DNA from: Elusimicrobia bacterium GWA2_51_34 | Lineage (GTDB): Bacteria > Elusimicrobiota > Elusimicrobia > Elusimicrobiales > UBA9959 | Assembly (NCBI GenBank): GCA_001799565.1 | Contig: MGTS01000032.1 | Coordinates: forward strand, 1 to 56,158 | Direction of reading: 5' to 3' | Length of the DNA stretch: 56,158 nt | Shown: piece by piece, positions 5,966 to 55,663 of the stretch | Layout: each line of letters opens with the position of its first letter | Numbering within the stretch: position 1 is the stretch's first letter | Translations under genes and position numbers: made by a program | The notes under the pieces: generated by a model | What the model was told of the DNA's origin: nothing | Databases searched by the model: none | Seen by the model: the letters and a program-made list of their open reading frames with translations, nothing else

Positions 5966-6040
5966 TTCCGTAATACTACCTATCAGGCCAGGCACAATTC
6001 CGAATAGATGCCGACCCGGAGATGGGATATACTTATTTCA
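5966..6040 (+). promoter_or_regulatory. Conserved 75-bp upstream block, copy A (before tamA)
   Basis: It aligns without gaps to 20356-20430. Shared parts are TTCCGTAATACTACC at the left, AATTCCGAATAGAT in the middle and TATACTTAT at the right (TATACT at 6028-6033 resembles a -10). The sequence between is variable but equal in length. This spacing conservation over otherwise unrelated intergenic DNA suggests a promoter plus an upstream binding site shared by two envelope operons. A short Met-to-stop frame (6038-6058) follows. Confidence 0.6.
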
Positions 6041-6170
6041 TGTCAGATCTGGGGTCATAAAAATTGGAGTGCTGCGGCTATTTGCCTTTCTTTCCACCCG
6101 CCTGGCCCGGCGCAAAATCTCTCTGCGCGTTTCTGTGACGACTTTTATGCTTTCTACTTACAATTCAATC

Positions 6171-10292: not shown

Positions 10293-10464
10293 GAGTTAAG
10301 GTGACACAGAACTTAATTCCTGTCATGCAGAGCAGTTCCTCTTAAAATTAGAAGAAGTATGCAGCAAGCCGACAGTTCCTTGCCGGGGTACTGATCGGCT
10401 TGCTACCCCACGTCCAGGATCTAAGCTTAGAACAACGGAATTAAGTTGTGTGTCACCTTAACTC
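10293..10464. repeat. Long inverted repeat between convergent tamB and pldA
   Basis: Arms 10293-10320 and 10437-10464 match at 27 of 28 positions and contain AGTTAAGGTGACAC and AACTTAATTCC. The 116 nt between them show no gene. The same GGTGACACACAACT...AATT arms occur at 29082-29128. The pldA stop codon (TAG, 10464-10466) touches the right arm and tamB stops 7 nt before the left arm, so the element fills the convergent intergenic space. Confidence 0.85.
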
Positions 10465-14568: not shown

Positions 14569-17340
14569 TCACGGGCGGATTACGGATTGTTTCCGCGGAC
14601 TCTGTAACCGGCACGCTTTAGACCGGCCGGCGGCGAAATCCACAAGGTATGTGTAGAAAGTATTCTTCCGTATCGGTTTGGTCAGGTAATCGTCGCAGCC
14701 GGCTTTTAAAGCCTTATCCTCGTCCTCGCGCGTGGCCATGGCCGTAAGCGCCACCACCCTGGTGCGAACGCGGTTTTCGGCGGTTTCCAGTACGCGCAGT
14801 TTTCCGGCGGTCTCAAAACCGTCCATCTTCGGCATCTGCATATCCATAAATATTATGTCGTAGGCCGCTGTCCTGAATTTTTCCAGCGCGTCAAATCCGT
14901 CTGTGGCCAGTTCTAATTTAACTTTTGACCCCTTCAGGAAGGAACTTATCAGTATCCTGTTGTCTTCAGAATCATCCACTAGAAGCGCGGAAAGCGCGGG
15001 CAGTTCTTCCTTCGCATACTCGGCCGCTTTCTGCGGCGCGGCGGACGGGTCAGTCGTGGACAGCGCCATAGGCCCACGACAGGCCAGTGTCACAGCTTCG
15101 CTTAACAATAGCTTCGCAGGACCGCGTCCCTCCGAAGCCCGGGCTAAGGAGGACGGGACGGCTTTTCCTGCGGTCAGCATTTCAAGCGCGCCGTCAAGCA
15201 CTGTCTGTTTTTTAACCGGCTTCAATATATGTGTATTTACTCCTATCGCATGAAAATCATCCCTTTTGAACCGCACAATGTCGGAGGTAACCAGCGCCAG
15301 GGCCGGCTTCGGGCTTATGGAAGCGTCCGCCATCAGGCGGCGGCAGAACTCGTAGCCGGCCATGTCCGGTATATTAAAGTCCACAAAAACCCCGTGAAAA
15401 GGCTCGCCTTTGTGCTGCTCTTTAAGAATTTTAGCCAGCCCCGTTTCCCCGTCAGCTGAGCCCTCACAGGAGGCGCCACAGCTTTGCACTATCTCTCTGA
15501 TTATGCTCCGGTTTACCGCATTCTCGTCTACCACCAGTAACCTCTGCCCCTTCAGCTCTTTTATGTCCGCTTTTGGAAGATAAAGGGTCTTCTTGTCTTT
15601 ATTGGAACAAAGGTTGACGGTAAAATAGAAAACCGTTCCAACCCCCGGCTCGCTTTCCGCCCATATTTTACCGCCCATCAGTTTTACCAGCATCTTTGCT
15701 ATGGGCAGCCCCAGCCCTGTTCCGCCGTATTTGCGCGTAGTGGATGAGTCCGCCTGCGTGAATTTTTCAAAAATAGTCTCCAGCTTGTCGGCTGGTATGC
15801 CTATGCCGGTGTCCCGCACCGAAAACAGCAGCTGCAGGAAGTCTCCGTCGGCTTTTAGTTTTTTTACATGCAGCGAAACATAGCCCTTTTCCACGAACTT
15901 TACGGCGTTACCCGTAAGGTTCATCAGCACCTGCCGGAGCCGGGTGGAGTCACCCTCCACGAATACAGGCACATCGGCCTCTATCCTGCAGTTGAGGTCC
16001 ACATATTTCCTGAAAGCCCGCACCGACATCATCTCCGAAACTTCCGACACAAGTTCCTCAAGGTTGAAGGGGGCCTTTTCAATCTCAACCTTGCCGGCCT
16101 CGATCTTTGAGATATCCAGAATGTTGTTTATCAGGGAAATTAGCGTGTCGCTGGCGGTACGCATGATTGAGAGGTACTGCGCCTGCTCCTTATTCAGCCC
16201 CGCCTCGTCTATAAGTTCCGACATGCCGACTATCGCGTTAAGGGGGGTGCGTATCTCGTGGCTCATAGCGGCCAGAAAATCGCTCTTGGCCTGGTTGGCC
16301 CGTTCAGCTTCGCGTTTAGCCTCCACAACCACGGCCATAAGCTGTCTCTCAAGGGTTACATCTTTATGCAGGGCCATGAAATTGGTAAGCCTGCCTTCGC
16401 TGTTGCATACCGGAGAAATAGTTGCCTTTACCCAAAGCAGTCCTCCGGACTTTGTCTTGTTGTGAAGCTCTCCGGTCCACGGGTGGCCGCCAAGGAGCAT
16501 CTTCCACAAGCTGTGATAAACAGGCAGCGGCGTCTCCCCGGATTTAAGGAGCCTGGGATTTTTGCCTGTCACCTCGGCGGGAGAATAGCCGTACATGGTA
16601 GTAAAAGCGGGGTTGACATATTCAATAGTGCCTGAGGTGTTTGTCAGTATCACACCCAGCGAGGACTGCTCTATCCCGCTTTTCAGTACCAGAATCTTAT
16701 CGCGCTGTTCAGTGATATCCCTGTTAAGGCGCCGTCGGTAATACGCCGCCCAGAACATCAGCAGGAGGATAAAGGTGGCTATGGCGGAGGTGGAGATGAT
16801 AAGCTCCGTGGTTTTTCCTTCCGCAGTTTCTGAGAGGCGGTTATTTGCTTCCAGCCGGGAGCGGGCATGGGCGGAAAGTTTTTTTCTCAGCCCGGACGCC
16901 GTATCATAGAAGCGGGCGAACTCCTCCTGCGCCGCTTTTTTATCCTGGAGCGACGGGGGAGGGGCTGTACAGCGTCGGATATTGTTCGCGAGGGAGGCGC
17001 GCAGCGAATCAATATCGGAACCGGTAAATTCAGCGGAAAAAACGCCGGCAGAAGCGGCTGCGGACGCCGCTTCATCAGCTTCCTGCAGAGCTTCGCAGTA
17101 GGCGACCCTGTTAGCGGAGGACGGATAAAACGCGCAGTGCCGGATGGACTCTTCGGCCCGGCGCACACCATTGGTCAATTCAAGCACCCTTATAAGTTTC
17201 ACATACTCCGCGCTGAACCGGCTGTTGATGGACTGCAGATTTCCCATTATAAGCAGGGCCCGCCCTATCATAACCACATGGATCGTTATTGCCGAAAACA
17301 CGAGCCACCATATAAAACGCAAATGTTTTTTTATCTTCAT
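14569..17340 (-). CDS. Membrane hybrid sensor kinase: TM-4HB-TM-PAS-HisKA-HATPase-REC-REC
   Basis: A 923-residue inner-membrane sensor. TM1 is at about 8-32 and TM2 at 177-200. The periplasmic loop between them is a predicted four-helix-bundle sensor with two cysteines. PAS (about 210-330) has FTTMYGYSPAEVTGKNPR. HisKA has the acceptor His in AAMSHEIRTPLNAIVGM, and HATPase_c has NLTGNAVKFV, DTGIGIP and GGTGLGLPIAK. Receiver 1 (about 595-715) keeps an Asp in VFVDFNIPDMAGYE; receiver 2 (about 790-910) has FMDMQMPKMDGFE. The linker between receivers carries a palindromic repeat element that is also found in queG (15099-15157). The gene lies 27 nt after the DUF4833-like gene and precedes the HPt and REC-PilB-REC genes, so a multistep phosphorelay towards the ATPase is likely. 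Confidence 0.92.
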   Translation of the reverse strand: MKIKKHLRFIWWLVFSAITIHVVMIGRALLIMGNLQSINSRFSAEYVKLIRVLELTNGVRRAEESIRHCAFYPSSANRVAYCEALQEADEAASAAASAGVFSAEFTGSDIDSLRASLANNIRRCTAPPPSLQDKKAAQEEFARFYDTASGLRKKLSAHARSRLEANNRLSETAEGKTTELIISTSAIATFILLLMFWAAYYRRRLNRDITEQRDKILVLKSGIEQSSLGVILTNTSGTIEYVNPAFTTMYGYSPAEVTGKNPRLLKSGETPLPVYHSLWKMLLGGHPWTGELHNKTKSGGLLWVKATISPVCNSEGRLTNFMALHKDVTLERQLMAVVVEAKREAERANQAKSDFLAAMSHEIRTPLNAIVGMSELIDEAGLNKEQAQYLSIMRTASDTLISLINNILDISKIEAGKVEIEKAPFNLEELVSEVSEMMSVRAFRKYVDLNCRIEADVPVFVEGDSTRLRQVLMNLTGNAVKFVEKGYVSLHVKKLKADGDFLQLLFSVRDTGIGIPADKLETIFEKFTQADSSTTRKYGGTGLGLPIAKMLVKLMGGKIWAESEPGVGTVFYFTVNLCSNKDKKTLYLPKADIKELKGQRLLVVDENAVNRSIIREIVQSCGASCEGSADGETGLAKILKEQHKGEPFHGVFVDFNIPDMAGYEFCRRLMADASISPKPALALVTSDIVRFKRDDFHAIGVNTHILKPVKKQTVLDGALEMLTAGKAVPSSLARASEGRGPAKLLLSEAVTLACRGPMALSTTDPSAAPQKAAEYAKEELPALSALLVDDSEDNRILISSFLKGSKVKLELATDGFDALEKFRTAAYDIIFMDMQMPKMDGFETAGKLRVLETAENRVRTRVVALTAMATREDEDKALKAGCDDYLTKPIRKNTFYTYLVDFAAGRSKACRLQSPRKQSVIRP
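15099..15157 (-). repeat. Coding palindromic element inside the hybrid kinase gene
   Basis: The 40 nt at 15099-15138 match 55343-55382 in queG at 37 of 40 positions; both are followed by AAGGAGGACGGG after a variable stretch. The core folds as AGCTTCG..GGAC-CRC-GTCC..CGAAGC. Here the gene reads the complement, giving the peptide SSLARASEGRGPAKLL in the linker between the two receivers, where an insertion should be tolerated. In queG it is read on the other strand, still open. Confidence 0.8.
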
Positions 17341-20355: not shown

Positions 20356-20430
20356 TTCCGTAATACTACCGAGCAAGCCCAGCATAATTCCGAATAGATA
20401 TGAAATCGGCAAAGGTCTATACTTATCACA
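20356..20430 (+). promoter_or_regulatory. Conserved 75-bp upstream block, copy B (before the SBBP gene)
   Basis: Gap-free match to 5966-6040: TTCCGTAATACTACC (20356-20370), AATTCCGAATAGAT (20387-20400) and TATACTTAT (20418-20426). If TATACT is a -10 element, transcription would begin about 35-40 nt before the SBBP ATG at 20467, leaving room for its AAAGGAG ribosome site. The conserved left block lies about 57 bp upstream of the -10, where an activator site would be expected. The rest of the 20201-20355 gap holds no gene I can support. Confidence 0.6.
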
Positions 20431-20466
20431 CGCCAACTGTGGCGAAACAAGAAAGGAGTACAAAAA

Positions 20467-29073: not shown

Positions 29074-29130
29074 CAGGTTAAGGTGACACACAACTAAATT
29101 GCTTCTGGGAATTAAGTTGTGTGTCACCGG
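29066..29130. repeat. GGTGACA palindrome between convergent genes; provides both stop codons
   Basis: Arms 29082-29100 and 29110-29128 pair almost perfectly (one mismatch) around a 9-nt loop. The left side is a tandem repeat of GGTTAAGGTGACA. The TGA in the first GGTGACA ends the P-type ATPase; on the other strand the TGA in CCGGTGACAC ends the methyltransferase. The arm sequence is the same family as 10293-10464. It probably terminates both transcripts. Confidence 0.85.
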
Positions 29131-39610: not shown

Positions 39611-39727
39611 TTTGCCGTAAGCCATAGGCCGTAAGCAGAAAAGTTGTATAAAGTTTATCACGAGGGTAACAGTGCTGCAAGGAATTCCTTACAGGCTTAC
39701 AGCCTATGGCTTAAGGCTTATGGCAAC
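39611..39727. repeat. Intergenic palindrome with GCCGTAA/GCCATAG-type tandem arms
   Basis: The left arm (39611-39637) is a tandem of GCCGTAA, GCCATAG and GCCGTAAG. The right arm (39689-39727) is its reverse complement in the same degenerate form (GGCTTACA, GCCTATG, GGCTTAAG, GCTTATGG). The loop includes AAGGAATTCCTT. It lies upstream of the OPT gene and borders the tRNA-Val repeat units. Confidence 0.75.
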
Positions 39728-39736
39728 AGTAAATTT

Positions 39737-39895
39737 TGGTGCGCGGTACAGGATTTGGCCACAAGTTCCGGTTTCGCCGTCGCTCAACCGGACTCGCGGC
39801 CCCGGCTCCCGGACTCGCAAGCTTGCTCGTCATCGGTCCGCCTTTCAAATCCTGACGCGAGTCAAGCAGTTGACTCGCTTACCGCCTATAAAAAT
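39737..39895 (-). repeat. tRNA-Val 3'-end-bounded repeat unit 1
   Basis: The first 21 nt (39737-39757) equal the 3' end of the tRNA-Val gene (CCA, acceptor strand and half the T arm) on the minus strand. The unit continues with a hairpin, TCCGGTT / AACCGGA, around a 12-nt loop (39767-39792), a GCAAGCTTGC palindrome, and a hairpin, GCGAGTCA / TGACTCGC, around AGCAGT (39857-39878). A TTTCAAATCCTG stretch (near 39843) can pair with CAGGATTTG at the unit start, closing the whole unit into one long fold. Confidence 0.85.
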
Positions 39896-40056
39896 TGGTG
39901 CGCGGTACAGGATTTGGTCACGGGTTCCGTGTTCGCCGTCGCTCACACGGCCCCGCGACCCCGGCTCCCGGACTCGCAAGCTTGCTCGTCATCGGTCCGC
40001 CTTTCAAATCCTGACGCAGGCCAAGCAGTTGGCCTGCTTACCTCGCCTGTGAAAAT
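39896..40056 (-). repeat. tRNA-Val 3'-end-bounded repeat unit 2
   Basis: Second tandem copy, again starting with the tRNA-Val 3' 21-mer (39896-39916) and directly adjoining the functional tRNA gene. Stems differ from unit 1 but pair within themselves: CCGTGT / ACACGG around the identical 12-nt loop (39927-39950), and GCAGGCCA / TGGCCTGC around the identical AGCAGT loop (40016-40037). Loops are conserved and stems vary in a compensated way, which indicates selection for structure. Confidence 0.85.
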
Positions 40057-40131
40057 TGGTGCGCGGTACAGGATTTGAACCTGTGGCATCCTCTGTGTAA
40101 GAGAGGCGCTCTACCGCTGAGCTAACCGCGC
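40057..40131 (-). tRNA. tRNA-Val(UAC)
   Basis: A 75-nt tRNA on the minus strand. The acceptor GCGCGGT pairs with ACCGCGC, with discriminator A and encoded CCA (40059-40057). The D arm is TTAGCTCAGCGGTAGAGCG. The anticodon stem CCTCT/AGAGG encloses CTTACAC, anticodon TAC. The T arm is CAGGTTCAAATCCTG. Its 3' end is repeated twice more downstream (39896 and 39737). Confidence 0.97.
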
Positions 40132-54723: not shown

Positions 54724-55620
54724 ATGTTACCGGAAGAACTCATAAAAAAAATAGCGCTTAAAAACGGCGCCTCGATCTGCGGATTTGCGCCGGCCGGGCC
54801 GTTGGCCGAACACGCGCGGTTCCTGCGCGCTTTGGAGGATTTACCGCCCTCGCTTGGCTACCTGGCGCGGAATTCCGGGGAAAGGGCCGATATCAGGAAC
54901 TGGTTTGCCGGGGCGCATTCGGTCCTTATTTGCGCTTTCAGTTACTGGCCTTCAGATGGCCTGACGCCCGGCCTTGATTATAAAAAAACTCTTGAGCGTG
55001 TTGGAGAGCCTGAAACCTTTCTTGAACGTTCCGGCAGGAAAATACGGCAGCCTGGTTTTTTTGAAGCTGGAAACCGCGCAATAGCCCGCTACGCTCTGGG
55101 ACCAGATTACCACGCGGCGGTAAAAGAGAAACTTTTAAAAATTGTAGAAAGTATGAAACCGTCTTTTCCGCTGATGGAGGGGCGGGCCTTTGTTGATACC
55201 TCGCCGGTGCTTGAAAAAGAGCTGGGGCGGCTGGCCGGGCTTGGTTTCAGGGGAAAAAATACGCTTTTGATAAACCCAAAATTTGGCAGTTATTTTGTGC
55301 TTGGCGGAGTGGCGCTTAACCTTAAACTGAAATCCGACGCTCCGCTTGACAATAGCTTCGCAGGACCACGTCCCTTCGAAGCTCCGTCCGCCTCAGGCGG
55401 AGGAGCGAAGGAGGACGGGTGCGGGGATTGCGATTTATGCATTAGAGCCTGTCCAACAGGCGCTTTAAAGGACGGCAGGCTTTTAGCTTCAAAATGCGTT
55501 TCATACCTTACCACCCAGGCAAAGGAGAAAGTACCGGCTGCGGCTGTTTTCAACAGCGGAGGCTTCGCCTATGGCTGCGATATTTGTCAGGAAGTATGTC
55601 CGTTCAATGGAATCCGGTGA
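54724..55620 (+). CDS. queG: Epoxyqueuosine reductase, C-terminus cut by a palindromic repeat
   Basis: QueG reduces epoxyqueuosine to queuosine in tRNA using cobalamin and two [4Fe-4S] clusters. Visible are SICGFAPAGPL, LGYLARNSGERADIRNWFAGAHSVLICAFSYW-type start, RYALGPDYH, FVDTSPVLEKELGRLAGLGFRGKNT (catalytic-type Asp), GSYFVLGGVAL, cluster motifs CGDCDLCIRACPTGAL and CDICQEVCPFN, and a Cys in SKCVSY. Two oddities stand out. About 23 residues between SDAPL and CGDC (DNSFAGPRPFEA...GGGAKED) come from a palindromic repeat that is also in the hybrid kinase gene. The protein stops four residues after CPFN, because the TGA belongs to a 21-bp palindrome arm; normal QueG continues for tens of residues. 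Activity is therefore uncertain. Confidence 0.9.
   Translation: MLPEELIKKIALKNGASICGFAPAGPLAEHARFLRALEDLPPSLGYLARNSGERADIRNWFAGAHSVLICAFSYWPSDGLTPGLDYKKTLERVGEPETFLERSGRKIRQPGFFEAGNRAIARYALGPDYHAAVKEKLLKIVESMKPSFPLMEGRAFVDTSPVLEKELGRLAGLGFRGKNTLLINPKFGSYFVLGGVALNLKLKSDAPLDNSFAGPRPFEAPSASGGGAKEDGCGDCDLCIRACPTGALKDGRLLASKCVSYLTTQAKEKVPAAAVFNSGGFAYGCDICQEVCPFNGIR
55343..55419 (+). repeat. Coding palindromic element inside queG
   Basis: The 40-nt core (55343-55382) matches 15099-15138 at 37 of 40 positions. It is followed by TCCGCCTCAGGCGGA, a second perfect palindrome, and AAGGAGGACGGG. The element is read in frame as LDNSFAGPRPFEA...AKEDG, immediately before the first [4Fe-4S] motif. The kinase gene reads its copy on the opposite strand. 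Confidence 0.82.
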
Positions 55621-55663
55621 CATAATACTTATATACCCTAATTAAGTATTATGTCACCGGATT
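55611..55663. repeat. Perfect 21-bp palindrome supplying the queG stop
   Basis: Arms 55611-55631 and 55643-55663 are perfectly complementary with an 11-nt loop, and contain CCGGTGACATAATACTTA. The GGTGACA core is shared with the elements at 10.3 and 29.1 kb. The TGA in the left arm ends queG. A TTGTTTTATTTTTT tract follows, so it can act as an intrinsic terminator for queG. Confidence 0.9.

Follow-up and report, generated by a model that had tools for sequence, protein, structure and literature searches.

How did a hybrid histidine kinase gene and queG, which encode unrelated proteins and lie on opposite strands, come to share almost the same stretch of DNA? The 56,158-nucleotide window analysed here makes up the entire contig C32 in an Elusimicrobiota genome of 2.63 Mb and 43 contigs. 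As reported in an earlier note, positions 15099-15138 and 55343-55382 are identical at 37 of 40 positions. Only about 8e-10 pairs with this identity are expected in the window, and chance similarity was rejected for that reason. Both stretches extend to AAGGAGGACGGG, in QueG only after a 22-nt variant segment. The queG gene (+ strand) reads NSFAGPRPFEA and the kinase gene (- strand) reads SEGRGPAKLL; as claimed, neither reading of the element contains a stop codon. The described locations, in a linker between receiver domains of the kinase and before an iron-sulfur motif of QueG, both agree with Pfam ranges.

The extent given for the kinase copy, 15099-15157, proved too small. With target duplications, the element occupies 15046-15156, and this includes a second element of 42 nt at 15052-15093. 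We refer to the main repeat as E1 and to the nested repeat as E2. The features are as follows.

14569..17340, - strand: hybrid histidine kinase, with E1 and E2 (36 aa) between two receiver domains
15046..15048, no strand: 5' copy of the E1 target duplication (CGG) in the kinase, deduced from 31 copies
15049..15051, + strand: first 3 nt of E1 (GTC), severed from the remainder by E2; uninterrupted copies read GTC^TGCTTCGC
15052..15093, + strand: E2, a second palindromic repeat of 42 nt nested in E1 (kinase peptide VTLACRGPMALSTT); the same variant is in an SMC/RecF-like gene at C20:43480 (L002)
15094..15153, + strand: remainder of E1 (form A, 63 nt in total); the kinase reads the - strand (ARASEGRGPAKLLLSEA)
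15154..15156, no strand: 3' copy of the target duplication (CGG) in the kinase
54724..55620, + strand: queG, epoxyqueuosine reductase, host gene
55348..55415, + strand: QueG E1 copy, left end shortened or ambiguous (NSFAGPRPFEAPSASGGGAKED)
55383..55404, + strand: QueG-type variant arm TCCGTCCGCCTCAGGCGGAGGA, with a 15-nt palindrome TCCGCCTCAGGCGGA (55387-55401)

The left end in QueG is ambiguous, with GCTCCGCTT resembling host sequence (relatives also code APL) and E1 alike. This end may therefore have formed by joining at a short match. Beyond the earlier note, our analysis identified a genome family of about 26 copies, the second element nested in the kinase copy, a 3-nt duplication, and length variants.

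E1 is found in many unrelated genes of one genome

Using a 91-nt query, we found at least 26 E1 rows in the same genome at E < 1e-4, a lower bound obtained with 40 of 49 candidates scored. The 26 rows are distributed over 23 distinct ORFs, of which 22 are at least 280 aa long and open right through the repeat. Note that the share of E1 copies in ORFs (22 of 23) is not a significant excess, given that a fraction of 0.894 of the window is coding (P 0.28). Pfam matches were obtained for 19 of the 22 carrier ORFs scanned (L025 was left out of the scan, and L009, L021, and L026 had no match). The matched hosts are the hybrid kinase, QueG, SMC/RecF-like, radical SAM methylthiotransferase-type, beta-helix, glycosyltransferase, carbamoyltransferase, TatD, Mur ligase (MurE by context), methyltransferase, PASTA, GH57, alpha-amylase, M3 peptidase, TPR, VWA/TPR, PTS IID, PheT, and TMEM260-like proteins. 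Three E1 units lie head-to-tail in the TatD gene, the last one incomplete. A half-length copy is additionally present in an 820-aa ORF on contig C15, which by eye we take to be transketolase-like; this ORF carries an E2-E1 chimera (PVADNACPRPFEALAKEDD).

E1 occurs at lengths of 63 nt (form A), 78 nt (form B), and 81 nt (QueG-like). In all 31 copies compared, including those from other genomes that lie outside long ORFs, the length is a multiple of three. Uninterrupted copies start with GTCTGCTTCGC and end with GCGAAGGAGGA, and four of the six frames are without stops. E1 appears to be parasitic DNA carried inside more than 20 protein genes, several of them for housekeeping enzymes, with reading frames unbroken.

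Host reading frames are biased

The same E1 nucleotide sequence is read in three frames, using both strands. Counted by distinct ORF, and omitting L021 (a 112-aa ORF), 14 hosts read frame f1 (SASLNNSFAGPRPFEALAKED), seven read r1 (SSFAKASEGRGPAKLLLSEAD), and one reads f2 (L018). Every copy is open in the frame of its host, and finding 0 stops where 1.63 are expected is not significant (P 0.19). Third-codon-position substitutions are favoured in f1 hosts (16 of 27) and not in r1 hosts (5 of 25). The choice of frame is itself skewed: 21 of 22 carriers use just two of the four stop-free frames, compared with 62-69% expected from the phases of target sites in the window (P 4e-4 to 3e-3). This bias suggests that copies in bad frames have been removed. 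Since the hosts include essential-type proteins (PheT, MurE), the inserts are likely to be translated.

Relatives have empty sites

Homologues of several hosts are uninterrupted where E1 lies. For PheT, the insert is absent from 24 of 24 relatives, which align around the site, and both same-genus genomes have an empty site at the DNA level. For the M3 peptidase, all 18 homologues covering the site are without the insert, and one further homologue is truncated there. The two same-genus empty sites read AAAAACTCCGACGGCTCC and AAAAACACAGACGGTTCA, compared with AAAAACAAGGACGG-insert-CGGTTCC in the E1-bearing genome. Similarly, neurolysin, a solved M3 peptidase, is uninterrupted at this position; in the alignment, query residues 384 and 410 fall on the same chain residue, 404. 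The insert is also missing from 12 of 12 QueG homologues. Three kinase homologues from genome G005 (67-75% identity) are short by exactly 36 residues, corresponding to 63 + 3 + 42 nt. The MurE peptide was found in none of 22 homologues, and here the insert boundaries fall within a variable N-terminus. A synteny search for TatD in genomes G001 and G002 found no orthologue.

These comparisons support the proposal of the earlier note, that a palindromic element resembling those of Rickettsia has spread in frame into unrelated genes. The note had also asked whether homologues without the repeat conserve the peptide. In the two genes concerned, homologues lacking the repeat also lack the peptide (12 of 12 for QueG and all three close relatives for the kinase).

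E1 is flanked by a 3-nt target duplication

On either side of E1 is a copy of a duplicated 3-nt target, CRN, mostly as part of GACGG. The first duplicated base is uninformative because it is nearly always C. The second is equal on both sides in 29 of 31 copies (23.9 expected, P 0.001), the third in 24 of 31 (19.8 expected, P 0.0075), and the whole triplet in 20 of 31 (14.0 expected, P 0.0004). Base 4 beyond the E1 ends has no covariation in the same 31 copies. Note that L025, for which the right end is missing, was excluded from this test, and that L007, L011, L024, L026, and L067 had no separate row. The test retained L001 and L002, in which E2 interrupts E1, as well as L022 and L023 with their odd left ends; these four add noise. 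The tandem units in the TatD and methylthiotransferase-type genes fit insertion into an E1 end, since that end itself offers GACGG.

A nested hairpin had been described for the element. This stands for the E1 consensus (z = -3.8 folded as DNA, -2.8 as RNA), with stronger RNA folding for form B (z = -3.6), and in weaker form for the QueG copy (z = -2.1). It does not stand for the kinase copy as folded (15095-15157): owing to mutations in the outer arm, this copy is no more stable than shuffled sequences (z = +0.45).

E2 and other repeats

E2, of about 42 nt, has about 42 matches in the same genome at E < 1e-6, both inside genes and between them. From fifteen long host ORFs, ten were scanned and all ten match Pfam; hosts include HypF, YidC, threonine synthase, M14 peptidase, patatin, and PPIase. 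The kinase gene and the SMC/RecF-like gene on C20 are unrelated, and in both the same E2 variant interrupts E1 at the same point. The simplest reading is that the E1 and E2 composite would itself have been copied. E2 is also embedded in longer repeats that run on into GATTGTCATTCC or GATTGTCATTGCGAG (L043, L045, L052, L059; G000). As a further module, copies of both E1 and E2 repeatedly contain the 15-nt palindrome TCCGCCTNAGGCGGA or close variants of it (55387-55401 in the window; L003, L026, L029, L035, L038).

The window contains other repeats. A further palindromic repeat (GTTAAGGTGACACACAACT and relatives) is dispersed beside genes, at 10293-10320, 10437-10464, 29077-29128, and 55611-55663. 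Tandem repeats of 159-161 nt with GCGCGGTACAGGATTTG, at 39716-40077, lead into a tRNA-Val gene (40057-40131, - strand) and are apparently repeated tRNA 3' ends. Finally, a 98-nt repeat (70% identical) is located at 5966-6063 and 20356-20453, upstream of long ORFs starting at 6069 and 20467.

E1 is narrowly distributed and one arm is more widespread

Of 294 genomes sampled from the phylum, six carry E1 (E up to 1e-5), and these belong to a single family. Among 41 near relatives, seven have matches when E may reach 1e-3, some of them covering the right arm only. The exact E1 core was found in eight stretches from only two MAGs, both Elusimicrobia, in a named collection of 84,980 species that possibly does not include the genome studied here. 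E2 is in 9 of 294 phylum genomes. Both same-genus genomes have E2, with one E2 site common to the two, and are without E1. Hence, either the expansion of E1 is recent or E1 was lost in the same-genus genomes.

The right arm of E1 is a 28-nt palindrome, and a 26-nt pattern for it is present in 4 of 294 genomes. In G000 and in G015, a genome of the same family, this arm is mostly part of E1. It also stands alone, in frame, in an RHS-like ORF from another Elusimicrobiota family (L205, G180:C17). In IMG/VR, 12 contigs contain a 19-nt pattern of the arm and 10 contigs the 26-nt pattern; in one case it is in frame in an ORF matching a phage portal (L188:2561-4135, IMGVR_UViG_3300033150_002567). In several IMG/VR contigs, the arm directly follows a stop codon. 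With regard to a phage vector, the E1 core was absent from the viral contigs and E1 had no match in the phage collection. Peptides resembling FAKATEG are common in Patescibacteria proteins. Tentatively, and with more doubt than confidence, E1 might be one elaboration of a wider, modular class of coding palindromes. The 28-nt core (GTCCTCCTTCGCCAAGGCTTCGGAGGAC) would then cross phyla on mobile DNA and insert in frame alone, and in some lineages would join modules with lengths divisible by three (E2, the 15-nt palindrome) into composites that move as a unit.

A probable selfish element tolerated in frame

We consider it probable that E1 is a small, non-autonomous, selfish mobile palindrome (63, 78, or 81 nt) that prefers GACGG-like sites, duplicates about 3 nt (CRN) on insertion, and is tolerated in frame, working in the manner of Rickettsia palindromic elements (RPEs). 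Because element and duplication together are a multiple of three, and four of six frames are stop-free, insertion would add some 21-36 residues without destroying the gene. Hence, E1 could persist within unrelated proteins, in their loops and linkers and where domains meet. A trans-acting enzyme probably copies E1 by recognizing the hairpin, or the short terminal inverted repeats (GTCTGCTTCGC / GTCCTCCTTCGC), and the insert would be translated and mostly neutral. Among matches in the same genome, we found no transposase or longer partner with E1 ends. A 3-nt duplication points rather to a DDE-type enzyme. The genome has six Y1 transposase genes, and for five the frame is open over 216-333 aa. 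No E1 or E2 was found in the 2.0-3.3 kb loci around the six, and a Y1 link to E1 was rejected on this basis. Two Y1 genes, L177 and L178 (G000:C37 and C1), are near AAAAGGTACC-type hairpins, and these are possibly a separate RAYT/REP system.

Conceivably, E1 could be REP-like and be moved via single-stranded DNA by a RAYT, an IS200/IS605-type Y1 transposase. E1 is a short hairpin-forming repeat, Y1 genes are present, and REPs within genes have been reported from several species (in sections of PMC3733652). However, the Y1 genes are without nearby copies and the E1 consensus is without the GTAG end. On these two grounds, E1 was rejected as a GTAG REP/RAYT element. To our knowledge, a 3-nt target duplication is not expected for the Y1/RAYT class either, and we regard such mobilization of E1 as unlikely. 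Alternatively, the insert might be retained because it is useful, for instance if it serves as a hairpin in the mRNA or as a peptide for interactions. The skew of 21 of 22 carriers towards two of four stop-free frames could be taken in this way, but removal of harmful peptides explains it equally well. Furthermore, the hosts are unrelated, both strands are used, no common function is apparent, and the hairpin of the kinase copy has decayed. A retained function is thus quite improbable.

Two other explanations concern the peptide itself. Ribosome bypass or RNA excision would leave the insert untranslated, with flanking GAC codons as matched take-off and landing sites around a hairpin. Many copies are indeed hairpins between repeated GAC or GACGG. 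Yet all copies have lengths divisible by three and are open in the frame used, which bypassing does not need, and opposite-strand copies are without matched GAC codons in phase. We judge this highly improbable. That the insert is ancestral protein sequence, or a convergent low-complexity linker, is hardly credible. While inserts do occupy variable linkers and loops, nucleotide identity is held over three frames and both strands. The empty sites in relatives of PheT, QueG, the M3 peptidase, and the kinase led us to reject an ancestral peptide.

Relationship to known elements

On the best reading, E1 would work like the RPEs. This is a likeness of kind, with E1 set beside descriptions of RPEs rather than RPE sequences. 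The marks of an RPE were found in E1: in-frame insertion in unrelated conserved genes, absence from homologues, and a hairpin-forming consensus. RPEs and the Wolbachia elements are likewise short palindromes, in frame, in unrelated and often housekeeping genes (parts of PMC2229807, PMC3767692, and PMC10969869). They also occur as several families per genome, at linker or exposed positions, with no known transposase, and pheT is a host in Rickettsia too (as PMC3767692 describes in part). Conversely, RPEs are about 100-150 nt, compared with 63-81 nt for E1, and belong to another phylum. Their duplication is marked '?' in the relevant portion of a review (PMC2229807), whereas 3 nt are measurable for E1, and E1 harbours another, nested family.

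Other classes fit less well. GTAG and CGTC REPs are also small hairpin repeats, some in frame within genes, and the CGTC type is without a transposase in the account given by parts of PMC3733652. There, a CGTC-tagged REP has a CGTC (TGTC, CCTC) end, an 8-9 bp stem, a 4-5 nt loop, and a CCA tail. E1 differs in lacking the GTAG end and this stem, loop, and tail, and is mostly inside genes. E1 was also rejected as a CGTC-tagged REP; neither fold nor ends match, and part of the CGTC-like string at the E1 end belongs to the target. MITEs share with E1 a non-autonomous nature, short terminal inverted repeats, and target duplication (for E1, duplication and empty sites). However, the ends of E1 are short and imperfect, and no parent insertion sequence was found among matches in the same genome. 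PARCELs are palindromic and code in frame, but are described as tandem amphipathic repeats (PMC2996958, in part), while most E1 hosts are otherwise ordinary proteins with one insert.

Coding palindromes have been named for Wolbachia and Methanocaldococcus (parts of PMC2996958) and for nematomorph mitochondria (parts of PMC6649704). Among the papers listed in our literature searches, judged by title and the start of the abstract, none was on coding palindromes in Elusimicrobiota, and the core of the 28-nt arm was not found as a string. The term 'Elusimicrobi' is absent from the main text of PMC3733652. As far as these searches show, in-frame palindromic elements are mainly known from Rickettsia and relatives and are new for Elusimicrobiota. 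Within this known kind, E1 has unusually clear empty sites and nesting.

E1 bears on how such elements move, and on whether tolerance of them is confined to intracellular genomes in decay. Here, in a 2.6 Mb genome from a different phylum, enzymes such as PheT and MurE carry inserts, and same-genus empty sites are clean. The measurable duplication implies a defined insertion chemistry to seek, and the empty sites provide natural before-and-after pairs of proteins. If the modular class is real, free-living bacteria would keep gaining protein segments from selfish DNA.
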